The notes under the pieces: model-generated
Databases searched by the model: none
Told to the model about the DNA's origin: nothing
The model's input: the letters and a program-made list of their open reading frames with translations, nothing else
NCBI GenBank assembly: GCA_021292105.1
Contig: CM037874.1
Coordinates: 29,378,300 to 29,442,299, forward strand
Length of the DNA: 64,000 nucleotides
Direction: 5' to 3'
Source: Anadara kagoshimensis
Lineage: Eukaryota > Mollusca > Bivalvia > Arcoida > Arcidae
Made by a program: the position numbers and the translations under genes
Shown: positions 10,893-38,000 of the stretch, piece by piece
Layout of the letters: the number at the start of each line of letters is the position of its first letter
Position numbering within the stretch: position 1 is the stretch's first letter

Positions 10893-11033
10893 TCATTGTT
10901 TGTTTAACTTGTGTTTAGCTTTACATATTCTCTTGTGATAGCTCTGAGCTGTAGAGTTTATGATAGACAGAACAAAATAGGCCACCATTACAATTATCAC
11001 CTTTTCAAATATCCACCCAAGTAAGTTAGTTTC
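10893..11033 (-). CDS. VMP1: VMP1 terminal coding exon
   Basis: It encodes [20 protein letters not shown], the last membrane helix, then a basic tail ending KAKHKLNKQ and a TGA stop. The acceptor is acatttcag. The cytosolic lysine-rich C-terminus resembles that of vertebrate VMP1. Confidence 0.93.
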
Positions 11034-14000
11034 CTGAAATGTAGAAAAGATTATTAGTAATAAATACATAATTCATTTAAGAAATGACATTCTTTTTTCG
11101 TTATTGATGCAAGTATGAATAACAATGGCCAGTCCAAAGTGCATGACAGTGAAGCCGTTCATGTATAATTTGGACTGAAAAAAAGTCATTTCTTATATCT
11201 ACAATATCTAATTTAAAAAAATTGCAAGATACATAATGCTTTGTGTGTATTTTAAAACATTTAATTTTTATTCTGCCTTGACACCTACCATCAAGAAAAA
11301 TGGCAGCTTTCACATGGATAAACCATAACAAAAAATAGTTTTTCCAACCATAAGTTTTATTTTGATTACTTTGACAAAATCATAATTTCATGTTAAAATC
11401 AAAAGAATTCTTTACATTGGCATGTGATGATTAATCACAAAATTCCTCTGGCAATACCTTTATCATAGACATTTTCTAGTATGGGTTTCCAACTTTCCAG
11501 TCAAATTTCCGGATGATTAGGTGACTGGAAATTCAGTCTAAGGTGAGAGGCACTATCAATGCACTAGACTACTTGGCCACCGAGAGTCCAATATCCAGAT
11601 ATGCAATCTTGCAATATTCAAATACATGTAGGCCTGCAGAGGCAGTAGGAGCTTTTAAATGTAGAGTGCTTAGTAAGAAAATAGTTAATACATATTCTGA
11701 AGTCTTAGTTTGACTGGGGTTTGAACCTTACTTCTTACATACAGTTGCACTAGAGAATGCATAATAATTAAAATATTTTTATAAACTCAATACTGTAGGT
11801 CTCTAAGTCTCATAATGTGACCATCACAAATTTTCGATTTCCAGACAAGTAATTTGTGAGTAGAAGCTGCATAAAATGACATCAACAATTGAGTTCGCCA
11901 GTGTACCACATGATACCTATGACATTTCTGTGGAAAAATTATTTCCATTGGAAATGGAATCTCTCCAGTTCATGTTTTTCCATAAAAATGATGTTATTCC
12001 GGGAAATATCAATGTAAACGTTTTCCAACACATTCCGTACAAACATTAAGGGGTATTGATCAAGTGGTACACTGGCCAACTCAATTATCATACTAAGGTG
12101 TACCTGCATTAACTCCATCACAAAATTTTATTCTCTAGCACAAAATCAAAGACTTAAGATAACACTGAAAGACTTTAGTGACAAATAAAATTAACAGTGC
12201 TATATGAATCTTATTTCATACAAGAAAATATGACTTACAGATGGTACATTTGTTCCAGGTTTATGATGAAGTTTCTTTTTCTGGATATCTAAATAATTCT
12301 TAAATGGAGTCTGTAATGATTTACCAAAGGCAGGAATATAACTACAAATTAAAAAACAAGCCCAGTTATAATGATGTAATATACTATAAACCCTCATTCA
12401 CTGCCACCATTTGCTTAGTCAAACTTTGGCATTATAAAGTTGTTTGGCGATAAATAGAAAGACTTATAAGAAGCAAGGTGTCGAATTTATTGAGGGGCAT
12501 TATAACAAGGTTTTACTGTATCTGTACACTGTATAATGTAGGAGCTGTTAGAAGATTATTATAAGTGACAACTAGGAAAAGCCACCAGAGCAAGTTTATG
12601 TTTTTTTCCACATCCATCGATGCAGACCGGCACTCATTTTTCCCAAGAGCAACTATTTACTGGAACCAGTTGCCAAATAGGGTTGTAGCCACACCAGATC
12701 TAGACAGTTTCAAGACTGCAGCCACTGGAGCACCATAAACAACCAGTAACTGTGCACAGTGTATATACTTGTTTGTTCATTTGTTTTTACTGCACACTGT
12801 ACACATGTACATAGTTTTCCCCTTGATGTGATTTCTGCCTGCAGATATGTTGAAGTTGAAGTCCCTACAGGAGTTTTCCTTCTATAAAACCCTTAACCAA
12901 AAACTTTATCACTAGATACTAAGCTGGCTAATGTCTGCACCAAGGGGTGTAATTCACATATTGCCAGCCATGCCTTTTATGTTCCAAGACTGACCGCCAT
13001 TGTGGTACCAAGGCAGCATCACGGCAACTAATGATGTATTAGTGTCAGTGACATCATTAAATGGCACAATTCAGACTGAGTTTTCATTCTTTTGTGTATA
13101 ATTCAAGCATGCAGGCCTTTGTTGGAACATTGTGGGCGGGGCGATTCATCAATTCATTAGAAATAACTTTGGTATTTATTTCAGTTACATCAAGGAATAA
13201 AAGAAAGTTGCTGTGTACATTATTGCATAATCTGTGTAATCACAGCAGTCTTAACTGAAGTAATAAGCTCATTATTAATACTGTATCTATATATACATGT
13301 ATATATATATCTCACACTTACCCTATCAAATTTACAACCTGTTGTACATGTTGTTCACTAAACATGAAGATTACAAATAATTGCTGTAAATAGACGAGAA
13401 CATTTTATATCAACAATTTTTGAAAAATACATTTTTGTATATTAAAACCATCAAATAAAATCTTTGATATAGTTGATATAGTCACCATAAGACTTAACTG
13501 AATCTTAACTTAATTGCAACTTTCACATTTTGAAACAGCATCCATAATGACAATAGTACTACATAAAGAACAAAAGGGCCTGTACAACTCATCTGGGACA
13601 TCCTCTACATGTACTTTACATAGTCATTTGTTTTTAATTTTTAATTTTTTTTCCCAATATTATTTTTATTTTTTTTCCACATTTTATAGGCATGTTGACC
13701 CATCTTAATTCACAAATTTCAACAAAATTGGTTTTGCTTTTTACAGTAATGACTCCCATCTTGGATAAAACACAGACCTGCTGGACACAATCGAAGGATC
13801 TTCAATACCAAATTTGGTTTGATTTACCCAATACTTTCAGAGAAGAATACACCTTCTTTGTACATTGCATAAATATTGTGCTAACAGTTACCATTGCTTA
13901 GGCAGACTAAAAAATATTTCTTGTGAAAATTAAAATACAGTAAATATTTCTCTGTGTAAATTATATGTTCTTACTTGTATATGCATCTTAATAATAGCTT

Positions 14001-17000
14001 TTCCGATAAGTGTTGCTCCGAAGAATGTCCAGAATGGTATAAGAAAATGACCACATGTAATACCAGCTAAATCAAACAATGGATTGGGTATCTGTAAAAA
14101 TATAACATACAATATGTTTATCAGTAACCACAGTATGCATCATTAGGATGTGCTCCATTTCAAAATTAATATAGTCAATTAAACCTGTCTTTAAAGGCCA
14201 TCAAAGGAAACTGTTAATAGTGGCCTATATGGTCAGGTGGCCTTTATATACAGGTTCAAATAATATGATAAAAGAACAATTGGAATTCAATTCTACTGGC
14301 CTTTATCAACAGGTGACCCTTATATAGAGATGGTCTTTATAAGCAGGTGGCCCTTATATAGAGGTGGTCTTTATAAGCAGGTGTCCCTTATATAGGGGTG
14401 GACTTTAAGGCAGATCAGACTGTATATGGTTATTTGAACCATCAACTTAAGGAGTTAAATGTATTAACTCTGAATAGCTTCTTACTTGATATTAAAATAA
14501 AGCCAGGAAGAAGTGATGTGGAGTAGTCAAAAGTATTTTATTTATATTGTGGTAGTCAGTTCACTACAGACCTTTGGCAAGTGAACTGACAAACTGACAC
14601 AAAACCAGGGAGGGGATGCAATTCTTGATCTTGCAGAAATTTTAATTTTTCATATTTAATCAAAACTAAAATATTGTAGAACAGAGTAACTTGTCTGCAC
14701 AAACAGTCCATCAAAAACCGTAGACAGTGAATGCTTACACTTGGGATATAACATAGGTGTAACTTCTTTGACACCTTGTTCATGTGAATGAGCATTGTGA
14801 AATACACTCAAATCTATTACAAAGATTGACTATTTTATTCACTAACTTGAAAAAATATAACAAATGTATGGTATTAATCAAATACTTACAGAGGCACATG
14901 CTAAAATTCCTAGAAATCCTACTTTTTGCACTAGATTATGAACACCTAATTTGGCCTTTTCCATAAAACCCTAAAAATAGACAAAACATACATTTATTTC
15001 TCCGCTTTAAAATCATATCATAAATATCACTTTCTAAGCATCTTATAATTCAATTCTCATTTCTTAAAAGCATTTTGATTGGTCAGATTTTTCTGTAACA
15101 TTTGCATGAATGTATTGGCTCTCAGTGGCGTCATCTCATTATGGATGACGTACAGAGGCATTCAAATTCCTACACCATAGCGTTGCTATTTTTTACTTGC
15201 TACAGATACATTGTTGTTTAAATTGTTGATTTTTGTAGAAAGATTTCTTATAATTGAATTATAGAAAAGAATTTAATTTTTCCTTTTGTTATGGAAGTAT
15301 GAAAGAATTGGACATTGCATACATAAAATAATTCGCTATGCAACTCATTCAATGTGCAAAATATCCAATTCTTTCATACTTAAAAAACAAAAGGAAAAAT
15401 TAATTTCATTCCTATAATAACACTCTGAACAGGCATCTAGGTAAGGTTACCCACTTTAACACAAACAATACAAACAGAAGAAATAGAATTATATTACCGG
15501 TATGTTTAAGACATGATCAACATCTACCATTGGTAAACCCATGGTTTCACTACCTTGTGATATATTCTTCAGCATGTAAACTGTGGCCTGTGTTTTATTC
15601 AACAATATTTTATTACTGACATGAAGACTGAATTTGAAAAACTGAGAGAAATGACTTATGATTGATAAATACATACATATCATATACACAGTGTGTATGT
15701 GCAACCCTCCGTATCATGTCGAGTCCTTTTTAAGTAGCTGTATCACTACAAGTCGCCCTTGCGCAATGAGTAGTAATATGGTTACTTAAAAAAGGACGAA
15801 ACCTGATACAAAGGGTTATACATACACACTGTGTATATGATATTTTTATCTAACATTTTCAATTAGATCATTTCAAATAAAAAAAACAACACTTTATGTG
15901 AAACAAGAGGCCCATGGGCCTTATACGCTCACCTGATAACTAATGTCTAGCTGATAGATTTAAAGTAAATGTAAATACTAAACCCCAATGACTTTTTCTT
16001 TACATCAAAATGATCATTGTATCAATACCTACAACATTCTAATATACATGCCTATACAAAAAGTTTATAGTTTTCAAGATAATTAACCATTTCTGTATTT
16101 TTCCGCATCTGTGACCTTGACCTTTGAACCTATGACCTTTTTCTATACATCAAAATGATCGTTGCATCAATACCTACAACATTCTAATATAAATGCCTAT
16201 ACAAAAAGTTTATAGTTTTCGAGATAATTAACCATTTCTGTATTGTTTCGCATCTGTGACCTTGACCTTTGAACCCATGACCTTTTTCTATACATCAAAA
16301 TGATTGTTGTATCAATACCTACAACATTCTAATATACATGCCTATACAAAAAGTTTATAGTTTTCGAGATAATTAACCATTTCTGTATTGTTTCACATCT
16401 GTGACCTTGACCTTTGAACCCATGACCTTTTTCTATACATCAAAATGATTGTTGTATCAATACCTACAACATTCTAATATACATGCCTATACAAGAAGTT
16501 TATAGTTTTCGAGATAATTAAACATTTCTGTATTGTTTCGCATCTGTGACCTTCACCTTTGAACCCATGACCTTTTTCTATACATCAAAATGATTGTTGT
16601 ATCAATACCTACAACATTCTAATATACATGCCTATACAGAAAGTTTATAGTTTTCGAGATAATTAACCATTTCGGTATTGTTTCGCATCTGTGACCTTCA
16701 CCTTTGAACCCATGACCTTTTTCTATACATCAAAATGATCGTTGTATCAATATCTACAACATTCTAATATAAATGCCTATACAAAAAGTTTATAGTTTTC
16801 GAGATAATTAACCATTTCTGTATTGTTTCGCATCTGTGACCTTGACCTTTGAACCCATGACCTTTTTCTATACATCAAAATGATTGTTGTTTCAATACCT
16901 ACAACATTCTAATATACATGCCTATACAAAAAGTTTATAGTTTTCGAGATAATAATTATAATCAGAGGTAAAAAAAATTAGGTCACACCCTTCACAATTG

Positions 17001-20000
17001 ACCTTGACCTCATTTTGAAGATACTAACAAGAAGATGTCAAAACTGAAAACCCCATGTCATTATCTGGTCAAGTAGTCAAGTTATAACAATTTGAAGCTA
17101 TTTTACGATTTTTTTAAAATTAAACGCAAAAACGCGTAACCCATTTTTCGACCGAATTTCACGAAATGAACAAACTACAGGCTTAAGACCCTAGAGAAGC
17201 CAAATATCACATCAGATTTTTTCTCCAATCAATACTTTCGGAGAAGAAGATTTTTTAAGATTTTTGCACCCCTAGGTCACCTTGACCTAGTTATGTTAGC
17301 CATGGCAACGCCACGAACAAATCTGAATTGCACCGACCCAGACATGCTTCTGACCAAGTCTCGTTGAAATCTGCCAAGTACTTTCAGAGGAGAAGTCGAA
17401 AATGTGTGTTAACGACGCACGCACACACGCACGCACGCACGCACATACACACGCTGCACCATACCATAAGCTCACATGACCTTTGGTCAGGTGAGCTAAA
17501 AATTATATATTACCACAGAAAACCACTGAACTATGTTCTGTAGTAATGACGTCATTATTTACATTTGACAAATTGAAGATTCCCCAATGACGTCACAATG
17601 TGAAATCCGACTAAAAGTGCATGTGTACTTTACCGCCAATGTTGTATCACCACAGTGTGGTGATACAAGATTCTGTATCATACGTGTTTGATAAAACTTG
17701 TATTTCATCAAATAAGATAGAAAAACTAGTCTAATGTTAGATAAAATAACATACCATGTCTTCTGGGTGTGTTTGTTTTTCTTGAAGTAATTCTTCTATT
17801 TCTTCAAATTCATCATCATCCAGATCAGCCCCTGATAATCTGGCTGCCCTTGCCATAAAATATGGGGGCAGTTCACCCAGTGCTGTACCTGCTCCCTGTA
17901 ATGAAGCAGAAAATATATATGGTCCTAAATACAATCAGAAGTACTGTAAAACCTTAATTCATTAGTTTACCATTTGCTCAGTCACATTTTGGCATTATAG
18001 AGGGTTTTGGCGACAAATGGGAGAGGCTTATAAAAGAAAAACTTTGTGGTGATAAGTGGCAATATTATTGCGAGGCCTTGTAAAGAGGTTTTATTGTATA
18101 TTCTAGTTACCAAAAACAGTAAAAGTACTCAACAAGAAAGTCATACAAAGAAATTTTTGGAAGTTCATCTATAAGGCTGATATCTTCCTGTTACTGAAAC
18201 AATCTTCAGACTGATTTATACACAATACTGTTTTGAAACCAACCGATTTGCATTGCAGTGGAGTCAAAATCTGACAATCCTATGCTCAAAGTTTCTAAGA
18301 ACACAAAAAGTTTCAAGTTCTTCTACATGTTTATTTGAAAAGAACATTTTGTTGATTTATCATTAGTCATTTGAGTGGAGTGGAGTAATTACGATTAATG
18401 CCGCACTATTTCACTGATATTGAGGTTGTCAGTTTACAGATGGTGAAATGGTGAAAGAAACCAGAATACCCACAGAAAACCAGACATTTGGAAAATAAAC
18501 CAACAAATTTATTTGTCATACTAGGATCTGTCCAAGTGGTGAGAGGCACTGTGATTCTTACACTTTAGGCCACTGGATCCCTTTTAAAATATGAGGATTT
18601 CTGTATGTGTATGTTATAAACTAATATGTACAAAATGTACTTACCCACATAACAGCTTCTAGTCTGACTTTACTCATTATGGTCCATATAGACACATGTC
18701 CATTCTTAACTTCTTCTGGACAAACAATTCTACAAATAAATAATTTGTTTAAATGAAGTTCAGTAGTAGTAAATAAAATACTTTTATCTTTAAACTATTT
18801 TTCATCAGATACAATGTAATTGTAAACAAAAACTTAAACAAATTTTATATAGGAAAATTAACAGAAATTTACTTTCAAAATAGAAGTTTGTCCCTTTACA
18901 ACACCCTAACCACCTGAAATATTGTTGAATAGATTCATTTATTGAATGAGGTTTTACATCCTAGCCAAGAATATTTTACTCTAGACATTACCAGCTATAG
19001 GAGAAATTGCAGAGATTTTTACCTTCATGGTGTACTCATGGCAATGTGCAGGGATGGTTCTCTAACATGTCATGCCTACTGTACCGTGACTTGGGACACC
19101 AGTTTTTTAAAGTCTTTGCTATTATGATTCTGTGACTTTCATTTCTAAATGCCAAGTGTTTGGTCATTATTAAAGTTTTGGTATTTGTCAGACCAGGCCC
19201 GGTTTAAACTTTAACCACCCACATACAGACCATCTTGGATAGTGTAAATGACATAGGGTCTGAGAAGATCTGCCTTAAATGATTTGTTCCACATTTGATC
19301 CAAGAGAAATGGCTCCCTGAATTCACTGTATTAATTGAGGCATACAAAAATCTAAACTTGCTTTTTAGTGTACAGTATAGACTGATTGATGTATCGGTAC
19401 TTACTCAGTTGGATATGGAGGTTCAGGGAAATCTGTTGACATACACTCATAAGCTGCCAATGTTACTGCTGCTATATGTGGACCCTGATAAAAGAAAACA
19501 TTTTTAAAGTTTTTTGTTTTGCTTTGGTTTTTTTTTATTGTTTCCATGTCTATTCCATACACAATCCAAACTAAATTCAAAGATAGTTAAAAAGCTGCCA
19601 CATAAAACAAGTCTGAATAGAAACATATATACTAGTAAATGTGTGTGATCTTAGTTCTGGATAAAGTACAATGATATATGATTTCTCATGTCTCTGTAAA
19701 TGGATTAGGGTGGAGTGGAGTCATGCTGGTTTATTGTCCAGTCATGATTTTTTCACTTGGTGAAGTGGTGGAAAGTTCTAAAATGGTGGAGAAAACTGGT
19801 GTGTCCAAAGAAAACCACCTGCCTTCATCAAGTGATATGACTAATTTTCTTTCCATCAAGGTCCAAAATAAATTAGAAGTCAAGGGTTTAATGACTAAAG
19901 ACATACATGTATAAATATACCAGAACAGTTATTTCAATTAACATACAGCAATGTTATCTGTTGCATGTCTGTTTTATATGTAAAGACTCTTAAGATTATT

Positions 20001-23000
20001 CAACTATTAAATAGCATTAGTCAAGCTGGCTCGTACAATGAAAGTCGGTGACATATAAATTTTAGCAGCAATTGTCCGAATTGAATTTTTGCAAATTTGG
20101 CAAGAGTTGGTGCTAAAACAAAATGGTCACTGAATATACAAAGAAATACATGTATTGTCAAAATGAGCAAATTACAGAACATATATAATCTACATACTTA
20201 CCAAATATAAAAGAAAAGTATGAAGACCAGTACCCAGTCCTACAGATGATAATATACCTAAACCAACCCAGTATGCACACCATAAAAATGTCTTCTCTAT
20301 TGCACTAACATACTGAAATGATAAAAATAGTTGGTTGGTTGGTTGAATGTTGCTAAACGTCTCATCAGCAATTTTTCAGCTATTCGCAACGAGAACTATT
20401 TTATTAATCTCTATGGATTAATCTATGAACAATTTTGTGTATGCATGTTAAGTGCAAGTGTATTGTATGGTCTGCCTTGTACTAGCGCGCACTCAGGGCG
20501 ACTATAACATGCTAGCTCACAGGGTCAGTATGCTGCAGACAAGCGTACCACTTCCCCAGTCCATTATACTGATACCAGGTGAACCAGTAAAGGCCAACGG
20601 CAAGGAAAATTCACTTTCCCACGTGTGGTCTGAGCGGGACTCAAACTCACAGTGGCAAGAGACCCTAAATTTGAAGACTGACATCTTATCCATTAGGCCA
20701 CCGCGACCTCGATAAAAACACCTCAAATTAAAGTAATCACAACAAATGTTTCACAAACAAACAGTGGAATAAGGTTGCTTCTTGTCAAGATATAAGAGTG
20801 TTTAATGCCCTGACAAGACATACCGAGGTGGTCAATTCTGGATCTTTCACTAGGATATTCCCTAGTAAGATTCAATCATGTCAAGACATAAGACTGTTTA
20901 ATGCCCAGACATACCGAGGTGGTCAATTTTGGATCTTTCACTAGGATATTCCCTAGTAAGATTCAATCCTGTCAAGACATAAGACTGTTTAATGCCCAGA
21001 CATACCGAGGTGGTCAATTCTGGATCTTTCACTAGGATATTCCCTAGTAAGATTCAATCCTGTCAAGACATAAGACTGTTTAATGCCCAGACATACTTAG
21101 GTGATCAATTCTGGATCTTTCACTAGGATATTCCCTAGTAAGATTCAACCCTGTCAAGACATAAGACTGTTTAATGCCCAGACATACTGAGGTGATCAAT
21201 TCTGGATCTTTCACTAGGATATTCCCTAGTAAGATTAAATCCTAGGTGTTTAGTGGCAGTGATTTAAGGCTTTAATAAATTGGAAACTTTACTACAACAG
21301 TAACTTTAAATTTAATACAGCTATACATGTATATTTAGTTCCATAATTTCAGTGTCAGAAATAGGGCTGAAATTCTAACCAGAAATTCTGAAACCAGTCA
21401 GAATCTCTAATTCTCAAATTTCAGTATTTCTTTTCTATAAAAATCCAATATAAAAAGAGTGTTGCATACATTTAAAATTTTGCATCATATGACGGAGGGG
21501 ATAGTCTTCTTATGAAGAGTCTTTTACATGGGGATCTGTAAAGTGAGCAAAAATGTTTAAAAGAATATACCAAGAAAGAATAAATCAATCTTTTGTTGAT
21601 ATTACATACCTTTTGATGTGATCCCTGAATGTTATAAACTAAATATAATACAACAAGTGTAATTAATCCTAACAATACAGTTTTCTTTCTTGTCCACAAC
21701 CTGAAAAACAAAATGCACAAAAAGTGACAATGATTGACTACCGGTAATGAATAAACTAAGGTTCATGGAAAACTGAAAGTATTCAGTAGATAAAAAAGTC
21801 ACAAAGTCACATGTACTTTAATGTTGAAGTTACAATTACATGTCTCAATTCTGCCATCTTCTGCACATGACAGCATCACAAACAATAGAACATATGCAGT
21901 AACTTCATTCATAAAGCCTATGTTTCCATTCCTGGTAGCCAAAATCGCCATTGGCTACTAATTTCTGAGGAATTCTTTCAAAAATAACCTATTTTAGCAA
22001 ATTTGTGGAAAAATACTTTAAAAAGGACTATATTTTCACAAATGTTTGAAATTTGGCTACTAATTATTTCAAATTTGTGGAAACCTAGAAAGCATGCTTA
22101 CTTCCACCAAATTTTATGGTTAAATTCTTTACACATTTATACATGTATATTGACTCTCCAGAAAAGATTAGTTTAAAAAAAAAAAATTACTATAAAGTAA
22201 TATCTATAACTTTTATATCTCACAATGTCAATGGCATAATTTTATAACTGAGTGGGGAAGAGTGATGGAGTTTAATGCCCCACTCAAGAATCATTCACTT
22301 ATAATGAGGCTCTTCAAGAATGCTGACATATATGCCTTTGCCAAGGCTATCAAATTAGCTATCAGTGTTAAACACAGACAAGTTCAATTAAGACAAACAT
22401 AAATGTACCTTTTAGCAAAAGAGGTTAATAAAATACAAGTCTCTAGAAAGCAAAAATGTAGTGTTACAAATGGATGCCGCCATAACAATATCTTTTCTCT
22501 CTCTTCTCTTTCTTTTCGAAGTATTTCAACACTCATTTTTTGTTGTTCGTTTGTTTCTTTAACAGAACCATTTAAATCTTTAGATTTTGAAGATTGTGTT
22601 CGTTTTGTTGCCATGGATACTTGTGTTTGATTCACGCCTACATTCACTTTAAGTTCTTCTTTATCAGCCTCTAACAACCTGTCTATCTAAAAATATGTAG
22701 ATTTATTATAAAAAAAAAACAACAAAAAAACCAACATTTTACAAAAATCAGAACAAAATATGTTGAAGGTAATTTATTTGATATACAATATAGATTTACC
22801 TGGCAATATTTACCTGGTAATCATGATGACAGAACCTTATTGTTTTAAGTAAGGATCAGATTTCAGAAAATATTTTTCAATGATTTATATTTCTTCTTAA
22901 AATCTTCTAATATTTTTTTTAATTTCCAGTAATACATGTAGGTCTTTATATGAAATGTAATTAAAAATTTACTCAATGAAATGTTGAAGTCAATCAAGTT

Positions 23001-26000
23001 AAATCAAACTAAAGCTTGATACTTGTTAGAAATGAAAGTAGTTTTGAATGTACATACATAATTTCTTGGTGCTATAAATACCATCAGAGTGGCCAGTCAT
23101 ACTGATTTTTAAGTATTTGTATATATATATACATTGTATATGGTACTGTGACTGTACCATAAAGAATGGTCTTATTGTAATCAAAATTGTTGAGTTGAGT
23201 TGATTGATGATGTTAAACGTCCCAGTCAAGAATATTTCACTTATATCAAAATTGTAATACGTCCTAGTCAAGAATATTTCACTTATATCAAAATTGTAAT
23301 ATGGTAATCAAACAATTTACAAAATAAAATCCTAATATGGAGTTAAACACCTTATGATCCTTGTTCTCTTAATTAAAATGTGAAAATATGATTTTTGATA
23401 TAAGCATATAAAATAAAACATATCATTCAATTACTGTAGATTACTTTGAATTCATGAGTATCACATTTTGTGAGCTGACCCCTAAGCATCATTTCGTGAA
23501 TATGTAAATTCACAACCACAATTCATGTAAATATTAAAATCTGTGATCGATAAGCAATTAGCTCCCTTTTCTAAGGTGTTTTGTCATGTTATATATAAAT
23601 CCACCAGTCAAAAATGATTGCTGGCATGTTTTGCCATTTGGCTTTTTCATTTTCGCGATTCTAGGGTTATTTGTGTGTTATATGAATCTACAAATATCCG
23701 TTAAAAAATCTCTAGCGATAAAAAGCAATCTACAGTATTTGTTCAGCAAAACCTGCTAGTAATCAACTCTATATATAGACCACCTGTCCACTATACATAC
23801 CAGTAGGTCACATGAGTAGTCTATATATACAGGTTGTACTGTAAATTTAATGATATACTACATCTTACTAACAATAACACGACAATATAAATTTGAGAGA
23901 GAGTGTGACTAGATGAGAGAAAACTAGTTTTACAATACAGACTACTACAGTGCTGAGATCTAATACTTGTACGAAAAACCTTCAAGTGATAACAAACTCG
24001 AGAGTTTAGACCCCCCACCCCCACCCCAATTAAATTTGACCAATCTTTCTCACTCACTAAACAACTAAATGATAACTTATAGTTTTTTTTTCTCTACAAA
24101 GCTTGTTTTTTAATTCTAATCAAACCAAATGGGTAAACTTAAAATTGAACAATTTGGGATAAAACATCTACTTTTTGTTAAAATAAGGATTATATACAAC
24201 ACATCCCACACAAAATAGTCAATGTCATGAGGTCAAATTTAGATTAATTGGCTACAAAAAAAACACAATTTGTAAATAATTAATTTTTTTTTTAATTTTT
24301 GAAATTTTTAATTGTGAATTTGACAGAAAATTGATAGGTATCATCAAGATGTTGTCAATTAAATTTTTTCAGGGATATCGATTGTTGAAACTGAAATTCA
24401 TTCAACTGCATGTAATAATAAATGGTGATAGAGCTGTCATTGATGGGAATTTCAATACCGATATATCAACTGAAAAATGTATCGATAAATTGATGTATTG
24501 AAATATCGGAATTGTGATTAAAATAGTTTATTTTTTATTTGATCTGTTATAAACAGATAATTTTCCACCAATATTTTGCATGTCTGATGTCAACTTAAAT
24601 GTTTCTAATATTATATGCACTCTGTTTTGCATGTCAATTTGTCATCAAAATAAAAATGACGGGTTCTAAAAATAATATATTTTATAATGCATTTACAACC
24701 AGTTTAATCTATGTATCATTGACTACTCCTCCTTTAGCCATGAACTGGTGGCCATTTTTGTTGATATCAATACTCAAAGAATGTATCGATATATCGTATC
24801 AATAGCTTTTATCGATATAATATCAATCTATCAATGACAGTCCTAAATGGTAACATTACTAGAAAAACTGCAAGAGAAGTCAATATATCATATTATACAT
24901 GCATATGGCAGTATTATGCCTTATTGTTGGAATGTTGCATTTTACATCATATTTATCTGACTTTTTCTTTAGACTAACAGCTTGAGGTGTTTGTATTTTA
25001 CTGTAAATATGTTTATTATTATCTGTGTTACATCTTTAGACAATACATTTATATATCAATACATCACATCTGGCATTGACATTAAAAGTGTGTACCGGTA
25101 TATATACAAAATATATATATACATGTATACAAAAAGTCAATAAGTCAATGTGAAAATACAACAAATATTATGACATTTATGTGTCAGTGTTTCCTTCATG
25201 TGTGAGCTATATATGTATGATATTCTAGTGAGTACATGCACATTTACATGTGCACTTTACAAAAACTATTATCTTCATTAAATGGTGTATGGAGATGTTT
25301 TCATTATATTAATTGTGCATCAACATATACTAGTACATCAAAAGAATTAACACTTATAGTGTACATGCACATTTACATGTGTACTTTGTAAATGTGCACT
25401 TTACAAAAACTATTATCTTCATTAAATGGTGTATGGAGATGTTTTCATGATAAAAATTGTGCATCAATATATACTAGTACATTGAAAGAAGTAATGGTCT
25501 TAACTTGTCTATTGATATAAAATCTTGATGATGCCAATGTAATAATAAATCAATGAAATTTGCAGTTTAGGCTAGTCTGTAAGCCATAAATGGTGTAATG
25601 GAGTTTTATGCCCCAGTCAAGATTCTTTCACTTATCTCGAGGTGGTCAGTTCAAGAATGGTGGAGGTAACCAGAATGCCCCAGAAAAACTGTCAACCTTC
25701 AGCAAGTGAACTGACAAACAGAAACTTTTCTCACACTTGGATCTGTCCTGAGTGGGATTTGAACCAAGGCAATGAGATGCATTGTGATCTGTGTGTGCTT
25801 TAGAGACATCTGTACCGATACATGTACCGGTACTTAGTTCTAAGGCTGGTTACCGGTAATCAATTCAAAATGGTTTTAAACAAATTCAACAACATTATAT
25901 ACAAATTAATACACTATAAAAAGAAAAACTCTTAACTAACAAATTTAATTTGTCAAACTAACAAAATTTACTGAAATTAAATTTCAAAAAATTGACTTAT

Positions 26001-28734
26001 TTAAATAAGTTAAAATCGAATAAAACTTCAATTAAAATTCACAATGCATAAAACAGCAAAACCAAAATAAGCAAAATTTAAATTTACCCTTACAACATCC
26101 ATCATGTCTAATATATTAAAGAGAAATGTCTTCAACAATGAACAAAGCTGTATATAACCATGTGGACGATATTGTGGCATTTCAAGGTAAAAAGGTGGGA
26201 AGGTTTTATCACCTTTTGGGAATGAGCATTTTAAATGGATGATTATAAAATTAATTAAATTATGAATAAGCTTAAAAAATATCAAACTGCAAAATAAATT
26301 AAGCTCACACAAGGAAGAATTCTTTAAATGTCTATTTACCAATGAGCTCACGAGGAAAAGATAAAACTTGTAATGGTTTGTGGTGTATCTCATGGTTACT
26401 ATCTAGCGGTATTCTATGAAGATCTTAAAAGAAACACATTTTAGAGAAAGTGGATTTTCAGTCAAAAGTTTTATCCCATATAGAAATTAATCTCTAGGTG
26501 CTTCAATGTGTTCCCTTAATTTTTAGATTTCAGTTTACATAATTATCTGAAATGTTTTTAATAGTTTTAAATAAATGACGATTTGGAATGCATTTAAAAT
26601 ATTATGCCAAAACAGAAGCTAAAGAAGTCTCTTGAGAGACAAATCGTCCCCAACATTGCAGAGTTGTTTCCAAAAGAAAATTATGGTAGTAAATCTTGAA
26701 AGAAATAAAAAGAAAGTACCAGCAACAAAAACTAATATAAACATACCACTGCATGTACACAATAACTGCTACGCAATCCTTACAACAAAGTACTGTACCT
26801 GGTAGCATGTTGTGTCTGATATATACTCTTAGTTACATTTTAGTCATTAAATTTTGATCTAATCCAATTTTTTTCCATGCAACATTTTTTAGCATGTTTA
26901 AGTATATTGTTAAAACATAAAAATCAATATGTTGTCATCAATTAATAAAGAAAACTCAGTATTATCTTATATAAAATACCCTCATAATAACGACAGATAC
27001 TTAGATAATGTAGCGGATAATTATTAGAAAATGGGTGATATTTTGTTGTATAAATTTTGATCAATATCATCAAGTTTTATATCAATATAAAATACAGATA
27101 CACCTGTTACATGTTCCTGTTACCTGTTATAGCAGGTATTTAATTACTAGTACTTTTACTGGGTTAATGGAAAAAAAGACAGGTAAAATTGAAAAGTAAA
27201 TAATTTAAAATTGAAAGTTAGTGATGTGCTGATGATTGATTATAATCAACAATTGATAGATTGTGACCAGGTTTCAAGTACTCAATTAAAGTGTTGAATA
27301 ATTGATAATCAGTTCCCTTTTTGTCAGGCAGAGAATAAGAAATAACACATGGTTGTAATTATGAAAACTCAAATCTGCAGAGTCGGATTCAGAATTAGGC
27401 AGTGAGAGGCAAAGTTGTATTCAGAAATGGTCAAAGTTAAAGTTTTATCAAGAATAATACTCATGTAACTACCGGTACTTCACTTAAGAAAACTACATGT
27501 ACACTAACAGTGTAGTACATTACTGGATGGTCTCAAATTTGAAATGTTAATAAGATGTTATGAAAAGTGTTTTACACTATCTACTGAGTACAGGTACTAT
27601 ATAACTTTGTTATTCATGAAATATACATGTACATGTACTACTAGTATCTAAAGACTAAATACAGAAAAAAACCAGAGACTTAAGAATGGAGTAGAGTGAA
27701 GTAGTAATGAAGTTTTATGCCAAAGTTAAGATACTTTCACTTATATGACAGCAGACAGTTCTTAATTTGCTCAGTCTGTTTCAAGCGTTTGTGGTTGTAA
27801 GCATCCTCTGTAGCGACCACAGGTTTCCTTCTATTTTTCAAACATAGATGGCACCAAGCCGTTTAAATTTTAAAATGGCTCTTGTCAGAAATGTCAGTGC
27901 CCCTGACTAAATTCAAACATTTGGCCCTTGGATATGAAGTATGAAAAATTGTGCCACTGTAAATGTTTGCAACCGAACACCTTCGATTTTAATTGTAGAA
28001 ACCTTGTCCCAGTTGTTTGTGTAGTGATATAGCTACATGGTGTAGTGTGTAATAAATAAAGGTTAAGAGACGTTACTACTGTTTCACCTTTCAGGCGAAA
28101 TGGTAGAGCGCTTGCTTTACAAACAGGCGACACAGGTTTGATTTCCTGTGTCGGGGAAGGGAATTTTTTCATTGTTACTAGCATTTATGTTACATTTGTA
28201 ATTTTATGTTTGAAAATATTGTGTCCAATTATTTGAAACATGTTTTGAATGTAATGTTCTCTGATTAATAAATTCAAATACTTGAAATAGTAACACTCCT
28301 TTGCAGTTACAGGGCCATAATGGAAGAATTACTGAAGAATATGAAAATTATCAAACAGGTGTTTATTGACACGTGGATGTAAACAACAAACCAGGATATG
28401 TTTTTGTTTTCATGAAAAATCAAAATTTATGCGCATTTTCCAAGCCAAAGAACACGGGGTTTAACAGGGAACAACTGGCGAAGAGATCAAGCACACACGA
28501 AAAAGGCAAACAAAGAAAATCAAAACAACCAAAGAATTAAAAACAAAAGATGTGAAACAACATCCAACGAAAATCTAAACTATAAAACCAACAAGCAAGC
28601 CAAAAATCGGGTCGCAGTTGACACCTTACCAACTCTCTCTTACGGCCCTTGGTTTTTAATCCCTTAATTTTAAGTTTCTCTCTCAATTTATCAACGGTTA
28701 ATCTCTGTAGTTCCTTGATTGTAACTTTAGTCAT
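10893..28734 (-). CDS. VMP1: VMP1, vacuole membrane protein 1, with an N-terminal SAP-like motif (whole gene, spliced)
   Basis: This is an ER multispanning protein of the VTT/DedA family, known to act as a lipid scramblase in autophagosome formation and ER contact sites. The exons, high to low, are 28630-28734, 22409-22686, 21610-21700, 20202-20312, 19405-19484, 18645-18729, 17755-17895, 14890-14970, 13975-14091, 13322-13383, 12239-12341 and 10893-11033. All have GT/AG ends, and the phases add up to 1395 nt (464 residues). Human VMP1 has about 406. Family signatures seen are [68 protein letters not shown] and [15 protein letters not shown]. Residues 1-45 look like a SAP motif, which human VMP1 lacks. 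An in-frame Met at residue 60 would give a 405-residue, SAP-less form. A 90-nt cassette at 15501-15590 may be optional. Identity is near certain; the first exon is an inference from splicing phase and motif completion. Confidence 0.93.
11885..12092. repeat. foldback element in a VMP1 intron
   Basis: The arms are ttgagttcgccagtgtaccac and its near-complement gtggtacactggccaactcaa, about 170 bp apart. The word gttcgccactgtaccacatgat recurs at 58038, so this is a family. Confidence 0.55.
12239..12341 (-). CDS. VMP1: VMP1 exon 12
   Basis: It encodes [20 protein letters not shown] and KKKLHHK, matching human [25 protein letters not shown]. It ends at phase 0 before GTAAGT. Confidence 0.95.
12382..12520. 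mobile_element. MITE family 2, copy A
   Basis: Degenerate copy: ataaaccctcattcactgcc to ggcattataacaaggtttta ctgta. See 31402-31579 for the best copy. Confidence 0.6.
12953..13153. mobile_element. MITE family 4, copy B
   Basis: Shares gccatgccttttatgttcc, gcatcacggcaactaatgat and gacatcattaaatggcaca with 3.1 kb and, inverted, 37.7 kb. Confidence 0.6.
13322..13383 (-). CDS. VMP1: VMP1 exon 11 (short)
   Basis: It encodes [20 protein letters not shown], matching human KIFVIITFSKHIVEQMVAFI. It is 62 nt and ends at phase 2. The donor is AGG|GTAAGT and the acceptor tatttacag. Confidence 0.92.
13560..13905 (+). repeat. old interspersed repeat fragment in a VMP1 intron
   Basis: It resembles the 39.4-39.9 kb units (caaatttcaacaaaattggt, tttacagtaatgac..ccatctt). 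The open frames inside are by chance. Confidence 0.4.
13975..14091 (-). CDS. VMP1: VMP1 exon 10
   Basis: It encodes [20 protein letters not shown] and [19 protein letters not shown], the second half of the VTT domain and nearly the vertebrate sequence. Both ends are phase 0 with good GT/AG sites. Confidence 0.97.
14172..14424. mobile_element. MITE family 1, copy B with extra internal units
   Basis: The ends are tagtcaattaaacctgtct and ggcagatcagactgta. An internal stretch (gtggcccttatatagaggtg) is repeated two to three times, making this copy about 70 bp longer. Confidence 0.7.
14890..14970 (-). CDS. VMP1: VMP1 exon 9 (counting the optional cassette as 8)
   Basis: It encodes [20 protein letters not shown] and GILACAS, parallel to human [22 protein letters not shown]. 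The acceptor is atttttag and the donor CCTCT|GTAAGT. Confidence 0.96.
15240..15415. repeat. hairpin element in a VMP1 intron
   Basis: Arms tttttccttttgttatggaa, gtatgaaagaattggacatt and their near-complement near 15355-15400 fold back around a loop of about 60 bp. Confidence 0.6.
15501..15590 (-). CDS. VMP1: possible optional VMP1 cassette exon (90 nt)
   Basis: An open 90-nt stretch between a cacag acceptor and a CCG|GTAATA donor would add 30 residues ([10 protein letters not shown]...HVLNIP) between exons 7 and 9 without changing frame. The human protein has no counterpart, and exon 7 joins exon 9 well without it. The polypyrimidine tract is weak, so this may not be an exon. Confidence 0.3.
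15640..15848. repeat. hairpin element, ~200 bp
   Basis: The arms atatcatatacacagtgtgt ... gtcctttttaagta and tacttaaaaaaggac ... acacactgtgtatatgatat are inverted copies around a short loop. Confidence 0.7.
15904..17498 (+). mobile_element. 1.6-kb element with 145-bp units, copy 2 (VMP1 intron)
   Basis: Same ends as 7177-8907 (caagaggcccatgggcctta / ggtcaggtgagcta), same unit and same tail. About six and a half units span 15990-16960. It sits in the intron between VMP1 exons 7 and 9. No clear target duplication is seen. Confidence 0.75.
15990..16960 (+). repeat. tandem array, 145-bp unit, ~6.6 copies
   Basis: Units match those at 7.3-8.4 kb, each with tgacctt(g/c)acctttgaacc. Two units have a g-to-c change in the half-site core (tgaccttcacc, near 16549 and 16694). 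Confidence 0.85.
17636..17685. repeat. short perfect palindrome
   Basis: tgtatcaccacagtgtggtgatacaa is a self-complementary core of about 24 bp. A similar palindrome (tgtatcacacgcgtgtgtgataca) lies at 49720. Confidence 0.6.
17755..17895 (-). CDS. VMP1: VMP1 exon 7: ELPPYF motif of the VTT domain
   Basis: It encodes [20 protein letters not shown] then an acidic loop ([15 protein letters not shown]). The [12 protein letters not shown] block is the VTT/DedA re-entrant signature in VMP1. It is phase 0 at both ends. Confidence 0.97.
17942..18099. mobile_element. MITE family 2, copy B
   Basis: The ends tactgtaaaaccttaattca and gaggttttattgta are inverted. It contains ttggcattatagagggtttt and a gcgataagtgg-like core. 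Confidence 0.6.
18370..18585 (-). mobile_element. SINE-like copy, family A (tRNA-like end at right)
   Basis: Typical order on the plus strand: ggtggtcagtt, gaaacc..aatacccacagaaaacc, cacttggatctgtcc, ggtgagaggcactgtgat, ttaggccact. Family copies recur at 19707, 25585, 27690, 36325, 37125, 38880 and 63640. Confidence 0.55.
18645..18729 (-). CDS. VMP1: VMP1 exon 6
   Basis: It encodes [20 protein letters not shown] and VRLEAVMW, matching the human IICPDEE and SIISKVRIEACMW region. The loop is a few residues shorter than in human. The acceptor is atttgtag and the donor GTAAGT. Confidence 0.95.
18935..19205 (-). mobile_element. SINE-like copy, family B, truncated
   Basis: Shares agccaagaatattt..ctagacattaccagctatagg, ttgcagaga, cgtgacttgggacacc and ttctaaatgccaagtgtttgg with the fuller 51.9-kb copy. 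The tRNA-like head is absent. Confidence 0.6.
19405..19484 (-). CDS. VMP1: VMP1 exon 5
   Basis: It encodes [20 protein letters not shown] and EPPYPT, the luminal loop conserved in VMP1. The acceptor is tttatcag and the donor ACTGA|GTAAGT, leaving phase 2. Confidence 0.96.
19700..19875 (-). mobile_element. SINE-like copy, family A
   Basis: ggtggagtggagtcatgctg, gtccagtcatgattttttca, atggtggagaaaactgg and catcaagtgatatgac match the family order. It is diverged. Confidence 0.5.
20202..20312 (-). CDS. VMP1: VMP1 exon 4
   Basis: It encodes [20 protein letters not shown] followed by [17 protein letters not shown], almost identical in pattern to the vertebrate protein. The acceptor is atttcag and the donor GTAAGT. 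It is phase 0 at both ends. Confidence 0.96.
20335..20715 (-). mobile_element. tRNA-headed SINE, fullest copy of family C
   Basis: On the minus strand the head reads gaggtcgcggtggcctaatg and later gagtttgagtcccgctcaga, tRNA-like A and B boxes, followed by a body shared with 1806-2060. It lies in a VMP1 intron. Confidence 0.65.
20786..21242 (+). repeat. tandem array, ~90-bp unit, five copies
   Basis: The unit runs tcaagacataagactgttta atgcccagacatac...ggtcaattctggatctttca then ctaggatattccctag and attcaatcctg. Copies are almost identical, so the array is young. It seems built from part of the family A SINE body (tttaatgccc, gaggtggtcaattc). Confidence 0.85.
21610..21700 (-). CDS. VMP1: VMP1 exon 3: hydrophobic helix
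   Basis: It encodes a basic stretch LWTRKK and a membrane segment [18 protein letters not shown], matching the human segment that ends in YYVEGVHQQ. The acceptor is tttttcag and the donor AAAAG|GTATGT. Confidence 0.92.
21928..22090. mobile_element. short TIR element, copy 1 (inverted partner at 61957-62129)
   Basis: It runs from tttccattcctggtagccaa to tttgtggaaacctag. Its complement is almost the same as 61957-62129, including aattagtagccaatggcgat. Confidence 0.7.
22409..22686 (-). CDS. VMP1: VMP1 exon 2: end of SAP motif, linker, first conserved block
   Basis: The exon opens [13 protein letters not shown], the second SAP helix, followed by a charged linker. It then contains [12 protein letters not shown] (Met60), which resembles the place where human VMP1 begins, and the conserved [19 protein letters not shown]. 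The acceptor is tttttag and the donor AAAAG|GTACAT, leaving phase 2. Confidence 0.9.
23193..23300 (-). mobile_element. SINE family B tail with a local duplication
   Basis: gttaaacgtcccagtcaagaatatttcact, then tagtcaagaatatttcactt again with atcaaaattgtaatac/atgg: a 50-bp direct duplication of the tail. Confidence 0.55.
23430..23735. mobile_element. TIR element ~300 bp
   Basis: The ends tactgtagattact and gcaatctacagta are inverted. The interior has ttcatgagtatcaca and tcgcgattctag, and nothing coding. Confidence 0.5.
24433..24845. mobile_element. TIR element ~410 bp
   Basis: The ends gctgtcattgatgggaattt and atcaatctatcaatgacag are inverted and rich in atcgatata words. The open frame 24599-24805 has no known domain. 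Confidence 0.55.
25232..25490 (+). repeat. direct duplication, ~130-150 bp, two copies
   Basis: acatgcacatttacatgtgc, actttacaaaaactattatc, ttcattaaatggtgtatgga and gatgttttcat repeat with few changes at about 25237 and 25362. Confidence 0.8.
25585..25812 (-). mobile_element. SINE-like copy, family A
   Basis: A good copy: gagttttatgccccagtcaa, gaggtggtcagttcaagaat, ggtggaggtaaccagaatgc, cttcagcaagtgaactgaca, cacttggatctgtcc and gggatttgaacc. It is a reference for the family. Confidence 0.65.
28085..28165 (+). mobile_element. tRNA-headed SINE fragment, family D
   Basis: caggcgaaatggtagagcgc and caggtttgatttcctg give A- and B-box-like words. The inverted partner is at 58595-58690. It lacks a full cloverleaf. 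Confidence 0.5.
28630..28734 (-). CDS. VMP1: VMP1 exon 1: first part of a SAP-like motif
   Basis: The exon encodes 35 residues starting [20 protein letters not shown] and ending GRKREL. An in-frame TAA two codons upstream fixes the start. It ends TTG|GTAAGG at phase 0, which matches the phase-0 acceptor of exon 2. [14 protein letters not shown] followed by GRKREL is the helix-1, glycine-turn and basic pattern of SAP motifs. Intron 1 is about 5.9 kb. Confidence 0.72.
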
Positions 28735-29554
28735 GTTTTAAGTATATGTTTGTACTTATCATAGATGTTGATACATACAATATTTCTGTCGAATTCACCG
28801 GCTTATGATTATCACTCCATGCACAAATGATACTCGTGTACTTCCGGTTGAACTAAAGGGAGATTACTCTAAAAAAAATTTACTACAGGGTGAGCCAAAA
28901 GTTTTCTAATATTTAACGATGCATTATAATATACATATAATTTAAATAAAAAAAAATCAAATTTTTAAACTTGTATTTAAATTTTAGTTCTTTTATTTAA
29001 CAAATGCTCTAGAATATGGTACTCTCAATCAAAGAAAAAATAAATAAATAAATAAATAAATAAAAATAAAAATAAAAAACGTGTCATGATATTGGCCTTT
29101 ATTTTACAACTTCTGCCACATAAATACATACATCAAATTATCTGACCTTGACCTCTTTGTTCATCAGTCTCTGCGGCTTTATCATGGTCATACACAAGTC
29201 TGAAAAATCACGGAATATAAAAAATACCATAATATTGAATATAAATGGGATGGTTGATGTCCCTCAAATAATACCATATAACCATACCACTGGACATTTT
29301 ACTCGTGCCTGTCCAAAGCTAGAATTTTTAAAATTAGTGATATCAATGTTTTTGTCCTTTCCTCGTCTTGTTTTGTTTGGCTGTTTTGTCATTAACTATT
29401 TTCATGTTCTCTGTTGTGTTGGTTGTTACTGTTTTCAGCTGCAAATTTCCTTCTCAAACCTTTTCTTGTCCTACAGCATTGACATCTTCAACCTTTTTCC
29501 TCCAACTTTGTCTTCTATGTTTTCTTTTCCTTCTTTCTTTGTCTTTTACAAATT

Positions 29555-35085: not shown

Positions 35086-38000
35086 CTGCATAAAAGGAAA
35101 GAAAATATTCAAAATTTGAAATACAAACAGATTTATTTCTATCCTTTTTCCTGATTTATCTTTCTTTTTTTCAAGTGTTATCTAAACTAACTTCTAAGCT
35201 ACAAAACAAGTATACCATGTAGATAAATTATACAGTAATATTATAATTAGGAAATAATCAACATTTACCTGTGGTATATCATCGAATAAAACATGGGCCG
35301 GAGTTCACATGCGGCGAATACCGGTATATTCTTCTGCATGTGAACTCAGGCCCGTGTATTATTCGATGATATACCAGAGGTAAATGTTGATCATTTCAAT
35401 TCTAGCATGATTTAGATAAATAGGATTGAAATAAACATTGCAAACTCTGTCTTCGGAAGTACATTTTACTATCTATTCGCAGAAAGGTTCATTGAAACAA
35501 TTCGGCTGTTGAGATTACCACCATTGAAATAAATGATTTTATGAATAAAAATTACGTAATAACCATTGTTCGAGGAACATAGCATGATGTAAATAAGCAA
35601 GGGAGTATGTCATTAAAACGGAATAGCAATGGGTATATATATATCATTTGTTATACCACATCTGGCTCTCTTCATGTTTCATATGAAGGAAAACGCAGGT
35701 CATGTTAGAATTTTGTATTCCTACCACTGTCTAGCTTCATAAGAAATGTATAAGGAGTATTCCAGGAAGGAAAAGGAAAAGCAAGAACAGCATATAGAAT
35801 GATGACAACTATTTGGAGAGCTGGTAACATCAACTTGAACACTAAAATCAGACTGTTTAATTCAAATGTTAAAACCATACCTCTATATGGCTGCGAGACA
35901 TGGAAAACAACTAAATGTCTCCTAAACAAGCTCCAAGTCTTCATTAACAACTACCTACCGGTAAGACAATTCCTAAAGATCAGATGGCCAGAGAAAATCA
36001 CCAACCTTGAGTTATGGGAGAAGACCAAACAACAACCTATAGAGATAGAGCTATCAAAAAGGAAATGACGATGGATAGGACACACACTGTGGAAGCCAAC
36101 AAATTCAATTACAAGACAAGCACTGCAGTGGAATCCTCAAGGAAAAAGAAAAGTTGGAAGGCCAAGAAACACCTGGCGGAGAAACCTGCAATCAGAAATG
36201 GATAGAGAGGGATACAAATGGCAAGACCTGGTCAGACTAGCACAAAATAGAACCAGATGGAGGAGTGTTGTCAGTGGCCTATGTACCTCCCTGGTACCAC
36301 AGGAATAAGCAAAAGCATTCCAGGAAGGAGTTAAGTTAAGGAATTTTAAGCCCTGTCAAAGGTCTTTCACAATATCGAGGCGGTCAGTTCATAGATAGAT
36401 GGTGGAGGAAACATGAGTGCCTAGAGAAAATCATCTTTGGCAAGTGAAATAACAAAATGACAAACTCTTCCATGGAGGACATGTATAAACTGTTGTGGCA
36501 GATGGAAGAAAAAGTGTGATGAAGCTTACACCACTAACACAGACCAAGGCAACAGATAGCCACTCCTATATATCAATCATACTACACCTTAAATCTACTG
36601 ATTGAGTGGTTAAGGTACAAACCTTCCTGATAATTTCAACAAGTTCATCAAACCTATAGACTTCTGCTTCAGCTCTCTTCCAATTTTCTTCCAGTGTTCT
36701 CATCTAAACAATACAAATGTATATAAAAAGTATATTATATGTATGTATCATCTCTTTGAATTAAACAACTTTTACCAAAAGATGCATTATCTCCCTTTCT
36801 TTCTATAACTGATACAATCATCTAATCGAATAAGAGTGAAGTGGCATAATGATAATTTAAGCACACCAGACAGGCCCTAGTTTCACAATCAATTCTTAAC
36901 TCAGATTATCCTTAATTTAAAATTAACAAATTTCAATCTTTTTTTTTTTTTTGGTACTACAATTCAACATTTTTGACAAAACAAAATGCAAATGACGTAA
37001 GCTTGAAATGGTTATCAAAATGACGCCTTAAATTCCCGGATATCTTAAAAGTTAACGAAATTATTATGGTATCTAATTTGCAAAATTTAAGTCAAAGAAA
37101 ATCTTACTTAAGTAATGATTGTGAAACACACACAGCAGTCATGATTCTTTCACTTATATTTTGAGAGCCAGTTCTAGGATAGTAAAGGAACCTGAGAAAA
37201 AAATATATGTATAACCTTTCCGCAAGTAAACTTTCAAACATTGGGATTTGCCAGAGTTGGATTCAAACATAGATGGTGAGAGTTTCTGTGATGGGTAAAC
37301 ACATGATTCAGACCACTCTGTCACCAAGACCCCTACTCAAATGATGATTTGTGAATAATATTTTATCAAGAATAAGTCATAATGCTATTGTTTTTTAAAT
37401 ACATGTACATTGTACTTGCAATCAAATATGAACAACATATCTTTACTGAAATCCAAAATTTTAGACCAAGCTTGTAAACTTATTTATATCTATCCATGGA
37501 AGGATATGATTAAAATATTTACCCTTCTTGATGCTTTCCTTCCTATTTCCTCATAGTAATCATCTTTTTTATAAGATTGCTCTCTCATTTTTTGTAGCTG
37601 TAATGGAAATATTTTTTATTGTAATTTAGTATTATATACCTTGGCACATCAATTAATTTTATAACAATCTTTCTCAACTACTATACATTTACATTAGGTA
37701 TGTATCTAAATATTTAATTCGACATTTAGCAATAATGAGAAGTGTTAATTGATGGATTGCCGGCCACGCCCACAATGTTCCAACAAAGCCTGGCATGCTT
37801 GAATAAGACGCAAAAAGAATGAAAACTAGACCTGAATTGTGCCGTTTAATGACGTCACTGACACCTGTACGTCATTAGTTGTCGTGACACTGCTTTAGTA
37901 TTGTGATGGCAGCCAATGTCAGAACATACAAGACATAACCGGTAATACGTCAATTGTTTGAGCAATAAAGTTATTATTATTAATAGGTACACTGACAAAA

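Follow-up and report, generated by a model that had tools for sequence, protein, structure and literature searches.

A VMP1 gene of the mollusc Anadara kagoshimensis appears to carry, ahead of its membrane-protein body, a SAP domain that is supported by a Pfam score above the cut-off, by reading phase and by splice signals. The gene lies in a window of 64,000 nt, the whole stretch of DNA analysed here (assembly GCA_021292105.1, CM037874.1, 29,378,300–29,442,299 of the forward strand), and all positions below are relative to this window. Both the protein (VMP1) and the domain (SAP) are known; it is their combination that appears to be new, and it is real as a sequence feature. In the reading to which we give a somewhat better than even chance, the gene is a VMP1 orthologue whose 5' coding exon adds the SAP domain to the N-terminal tail, and this tail would act as a nucleic-acid-binding or docking module on the cytosolic N-terminus of VMP1.

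A SAP domain ahead of the VMP1 body

Twelve exons on the minus strand (Table 1) encode a protein of 464 residues that ends at 10893; the introns all have GT/AG borders (11/11) and compatible phases. Exon 1 ends directly after 35 codons at a consensus donor (gtaaggtg), while the acceptor of exon 2 reads ...atttttag. Both sides of the junction between them are in phase 0, and the first ATG is preceded by a stop in the same frame; the earlier note on this DNA had claimed both.

Table 1. Exons of the VMP1 gene model and associated signals in the window
Feature	Positions	Strand	Content
In-frame TAA stop	28738..28740	-	two codons ahead of the exon 1 ATG
Exon 1	28630..28734	-	105 bases; start codon and residues 1-35; SAP helix 1, loop, start of helix 2
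Intron 1	22687..28629	-	phase 0, 5943 bases
Exon 2	22409..22686	-	end of SAP helix 2 (IDRLLEAD), linker, Met60, charged KEREEREK, start of VMP1 body
Out-of-frame ATG-TAG start-stop	22638..22643	-	within exon 2, upstream of Met60
Exon 3	21610..21700	-	splice-model exon
Exon 4	20202..20312	-	splice-model exon
Exon 5	19405..19484	-	splice-model exon
Exon 6	18645..18729	-	splice-model exon
Exon 7	17755..17895	-	splice-model exon
Exon 8	14890..14970	-	residues 298-324; sub-threshold VTT match starts at residue 306
Exon 9	13975..14091	-	residues 325-363; remainder of VTT match
Exon 10	13322..13383	-	splice-model exon
Exon 11	12239..12341	-	splice-model exon
Exon 12	10893..11033	-	includes stop codon

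Residues 9–44 match the Pfam SAP profile (PF02037, 37 positions, gathering score 23.9 bits) with 33.7 bits when the full protein serves as the query, 35.4 bits for residues 1–128 and 38.1 bits for residues 1–60. The last of these is the test that the earlier note had proposed for the first 60 residues, and the score there lies above, not below, the cut-off. The same note had held that the motif becomes complete only when the two exons are joined, which comes close. Exon 2 does add the end of helix 2, and the joined exons, given the predicted splice, span profile positions 2–37 of 37, i.e., the whole two-helix motif. However, exon 1 alone already reaches 24.8 bits, narrowly above the cut-off, over profile positions 2–28 (25.9 bits when extended into the intron). 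For exon 2 alone, the Pfam scan lists no SAP match. The HeH and LEM profiles, which we take to be both present in the Pfam library, do not appear in the Pfam output, which extends to an E of 10, gives four families for each query and drops most matches above E of about 0.1, and a search of the protein with the NCBIfam profiles gives 0 families.

The remainder of the protein can be assigned by its similarity to human VMP1, a scramblase of the endoplasmic reticulum (ER) that belongs to the VTT/DedA superfamily and counts 406 residues. Over residues 99–464, 228 of 367 aligned positions (62 %) are identical to the human sequence used here, a block of 17 residues and one of 15 being among the shared parts, the local alignment beginning at window residue 99, which corresponds to human residue 42. 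Because of this identity the body is taken as VMP1 even though the Pfam VTT_dom profile, with 28.2 bits (E 3e-6), remains below its cut-off of 33.9. The two proteins thus have the membrane body in common, but the human sequence used shows a gap opposite the SAP domain, in agreement with the earlier statement that human VMP1 is devoid of one. At its other end the window protein terminates in KLNKQ (10896–10910, minus strand), without the XKXX ER-retention signature; mammalian VMP1 is described as carrying such a signature (PMC5115753).

The gene model leaves out a 90-base stretch between exons 7 and 8 because human VMP1 has no counterpart to it in the sequence used. This stretch in intron 7 (15587–15498, minus strand) is a possible 30-codon phase-0 cassette exon with AG/GT borders. 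Of the 83 cassettes of this phase that the introns of VMP1 offer, it has the second-highest codon score, surpassed by a shortened form of itself; 18 of 1946 open intronic 90-mers reach its score.

Pattern searches for VMP1 relatives in viral contigs matched 8, 10 and 20 stretches, none of which was confirmed as a relative, and one such search of genome contigs yielded 40 stretches, none of them a relative. A second search of genome contigs gave three (out of 82 stretches), all from Chloroflexi/Chloroflexota metagenome-assembled genomes, whose open frames of 190–207 residues are uninformative for the N-terminus. The three bacterial proteins (L001 5646–6227, L002 9596–10168 and L003 9551–10174) have a SIPNPLFDL block in common with VMP1, with identities of 57 % over 42, 56 % over 34 and 46 % over 39 query residues, respectively; the comparison suggests a block closer to VMP1 than expected of a bacterial relative.

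Chance was assessed with a local SAP model derived from four SAP segments in the PDB, which gives the joined 60-mer 32.6 bits, the full protein 27.8 and exon 1 alone 24.4. The best residue shuffle attains 15.3 bits (5000 made, 4884 scored). When each of 2338 GT donors is joined to exon 2, the true donor gives the 32.6 bits and the next one 7.6, and among the 2927 open stretches that a six-frame reading of the window gives, that of exon 1 scores 25.1 bits and the runner-up 6.4. A transposon-derived SAP sequence was considered and, given this last difference, appears unlikely. At the acceptor side, a SAP ending pattern, [ILV]-x-[RK]-[LIV], was picked after the sequence had been seen; it is matched by 8 of 1406 AG joins in its strict form and by 17 in a looser one. 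Between the donor of exon 1 and the acceptor of exon 2 there are 258 AG sites, this acceptor counted; it is the sole strict match among them, and its reading frame is set independently by VMP1. As to codon usage, the 24 exon 2 codons that precede Met60 are equalled by 91 of 2937 open intronic stretches. Taken as a splice prediction, exon 1 is very probably joined to VMP1.

A putative docking module on the VMP1 tail

Up to an E of 10, a search of the PDB sequences with the SAP region returns 15 different sequences, but E falls below 0.001 only for E1B-AP5 (1zrj, E 0.00025), which we take to be hnRNP U-like 1, and for the "thyroid autoantigen" (1jjr, E 0.00066), presumably Ku70. Hcc-1, Tho1 and MKL1 follow at E 0.011 to 0.058, and further down come PIAS3 and a putative DNA-binding protein, with leucine-zipper chains of Fos in between, most likely by chance. 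The whole protein as query yields 8 different sequences within the same E limit; they comprise SAP chains, a checkpoint protein and two chains of Fos, and no VMP1 structure is among them. The closest known SAP domains are those of E1B-AP5 (1zrj) and Hcc-1 (2do1) and, more weakly, of 1jjr and Tho1 (1h1j). The best solved relatives are mostly nuclear and nucleic-acid-associated proteins. E1B-AP5, Hcc-1, Ku70 and Tho1 are presumably all soluble nuclear proteins, whereas the SAP domain of the window heads a polytopic membrane protein.

Aligned to 1zrj and 2do1, the window protein has the loop residues Gly25-Leu26 and Gly30-Arg31-Lys32; the SAP domain of Tho1 (1h1j) has Asn-Leu at the start of its loop. 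Gly-Leu and Gly-x-Lys loop residues have been tied to DNA association in SAP domains (PMC9399289). Residues 1–46 comprise 15 lysines or arginines versus 9 aspartates or glutamates, with a calculated isoelectric point of 9.99. It is because of these loop residues and this basic character that a nucleic-acid docking module is proposed.

The SAP domain would fold as a helix-loop-helix on a tail facing the cytosol, or the nucleoplasm when VMP1 sits in the nuclear membrane. There it may serve as a docking module that tethers the ER scramblase beside nucleic acid, the target being either chromatin at the nuclear envelope or, on the surface of the ER, RNA or ribonucleoprotein (RNP). It would alter the site at which VMP1 clusters while leaving lipid scrambling unchanged. 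The docking might resemble the mode put forward for those inner nuclear membrane proteins that bear SAP-like (HeH/LEM) motifs at the N-terminus.

What has been reported for VMP1 is compatible with a localizing function of its tail. The N-terminus is predicted to be cytosolic, immunogold labelling places VMP1-GFP at the nuclear membrane and on ER tubules, and deletion of the first 61 residues in HeLa cells causes the protein to spread over the ER with loss of puncta and perinuclear accumulation (PMC5115753). What the authors highlight in the N-terminal tail is an amphipathic helix, not a SAP motif (PMC5115753). Since removal of the N-terminus abolishes puncta and perinuclear accumulation, binding added at this end could plausibly redirect VMP1.

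A precedent for how the motif may work is offered by the Lem2/Man1/Src1 family, in which, as in the window protein, an N-terminal two-helix motif is borne by a membrane protein (PMC7285967, PMC6240307); for Lem2-related proteins of two yeasts this motif is predicted to be of the HeH/SAP type (PMC7285967). However, these proteins have an MSC domain and two transmembrane helices, whereas the window protein is matched by Pfam SAP with neither HeH nor LEM listed. It is not a member of the family. In addition, because cells deficient in TMEM41B, a related scramblase, show nuclear envelope herniations (PMC13061601), a role of the window protein at the nuclear envelope is conceivable, although the herniations concern TMEM41B and not VMP1.

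Alternative readings of exon 1 and of the SAP domain

Exon 1 might belong to another, possibly nested, SAP gene, with VMP1 having a non-coding 5' exon and its start at Met60, and the in-frame join being fortuitous. That exon 1 passes the SAP cut-off by itself (24.8 bits) would fit such an arrangement, as would the length of a Met60 form (464-59, i.e., 405 residues, near the human 406) and the human protein without a SAP region. Moreover, 268 of 1406 frames anchored at an AG run through 25 codons with no stop, and the open stretch before Met60 is thus not in itself strong evidence. Yet exon 2, when read back in the VMP1 frame, yields the IDRLLEAD ending, at the one acceptor among the 258 with a strict-pattern SAP end, an ATG-TAG start-stop lies ahead of Met60, and no other SAP-like stretch is conspicuous when the window is read in six frames. 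A partner exon for exon 1 was sought in the list of open reading frames and in the intron 1 open frames 26028–26402 and 27894–28184, and the latter two have no Pfam family above cut-off. A separate SAP gene is therefore quite improbable in our view. An internal exon of an upstream gene is also unlikely: the TAA and the ATG are only two codons apart, with no acceptor AG in between, and an acceptor inside exon 1 would, as judged by eye, lack a pyrimidine tract. The earlier note had found two isoforms plausible from the length of the Met60 form. The length itself stands, and it is the one thing that speaks for a Met60 isoform, which is possible. As a sign of where translation starts, however, the match in length does not hold up: the human alignment begins only at residue 99, so a similar length is no proof of a homologous start, and the ATG-TAG precedes Met60. 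That two forms coexist, SAP-VMP1 from an exon 1 promoter and the 405-residue form via another first exon, appears unlikely. The lengths would suit it, but no second first exon is known (no systematic search was made), and the start context of Met60, with the ATG-TAG upstream, is mixed (T at -3 and G at +4, compared with A at both positions for Met1).

The fusion may also be genuine while its SAP domain docks a protein partner at the ER, for example an autophagy or SUMO/ubiquitin factor, rather than nucleic acid. Some SAP domains may indeed bind protein. VMP1 resides in the ER and concentrates there in micro-domains close to other organelles (PMC5115753), where protein partners would be the commoner ones. 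Against this, the closest solved relatives are nucleic-acid-associated and the loop residues for DNA association are retained, and we consider protein docking rather unlikely, though it is the main rival. The preferred reading, a VMP1 fusion with a nucleic-acid docking tail, itself has to face several observations that weigh against it. That SAP domains may have protein rather than nucleic-acid ligands is one of them. The core SAP domain of SDE2 binds weakly, and its binding is augmented by two tail lysines beyond the core (PMC9399289), and a core loop by itself may therefore be insufficient. By raw score with the local model, three of the 1406 AG joins (33.5, 32.9 and 32.7 bits) surpass that at the true acceptor, which ranks fourth, although the tails that these three add are short and artificial. 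Nor is exon 1 set apart as coding by its codon usage, a score as high being reached by 438 of 1371 open intronic 105-mers. Finally, the junction between exons 1 and 2 is a prediction from genomic sequence, and a location of this VMP1 at chromatin or on RNA is conjecture.

Surroundings of the gene and wider meaning

Gene content and intron structure fit an animal, and the repeats look like those of a mollusc. A 145-base unit recurs in closely similar form in two arrays of the window, one at 7261–8371 (7.7 copies, 94 % matches) and the other within VMP1 intron 7 at 15988–16953 (6.7 copies, 96 % matches); by eye, the stretch around the latter resembles a mobile element with AGCTCACCTGACC-type ends. 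Intron 3 houses five tandem copies of a 91-base unit (20783–21243, 95 % matches). An open frame on the plus strand (35754–36068) matches Pfam DUF6451 (42.3 bits, cut-off 28) and resembles a retrotransposon remnant. Upstream of VMP1 on the same strand, an open stretch of 507 codons (52367–53890, minus strand) is rich in serine and acidic residues and shows, by eye, recurring [AG]CSP motifs, while a Pfam scan to an E of 0.1 finds no match in it; it is accompanied by a coiled-coil-like open frame (51266–51589). A tRNA scan of the window finds 0 genes. In vertebrates, mir-21 is hosted at the 3' end of VMP1; the Rfam scan of the window (1–64000) reports no family at the gathering score, mir-21 included.

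The earlier note knew of no described SAP-VMP1, and a search of the openly licensed PMC literature indeed yields no paper pairing "VMP1" and "SAP domain". In a broader search, none of the matches listed deals with a SAP domain of VMP1 as far as titles and the beginnings of abstracts tell, and more than half of them are, by title, about pancreatitis. PMC5575902 was discarded as a possible report, "SAP" standing there for R-SAP, a program. Nor does a search there yield a paper that pairs a SAP domain with a transmembrane ER membrane protein, and in the mollusc literature none of the matches listed contains "vacuole membrane protein 1" or "SAP domain-containing".

VMP1 is known as an ER scramblase with functions in autophagy and lipoprotein handling that needs its N-terminal tail for clustering (PMC5115753, PMC9066413). 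A natural VMP1 with a defined binding module on this tail would provide a direct route to asking what positions the protein, and the same variant would permit one to ask if scramblases of the ER have a role at the nuclear envelope. More speculatively, and with considerable doubt on our part, there may be an animal lineage in which VMP1 couples the ER scramblase to nucleic acid, be it chromatin at the nuclear envelope or RNA/RNP at the ER, and in which the lipid supply to autophagosomes or to the nuclear membrane would be sensitive to the location of nucleic acid. If the fusion turns out to be widespread in invertebrates, vertebrates may have lost part of VMP1.
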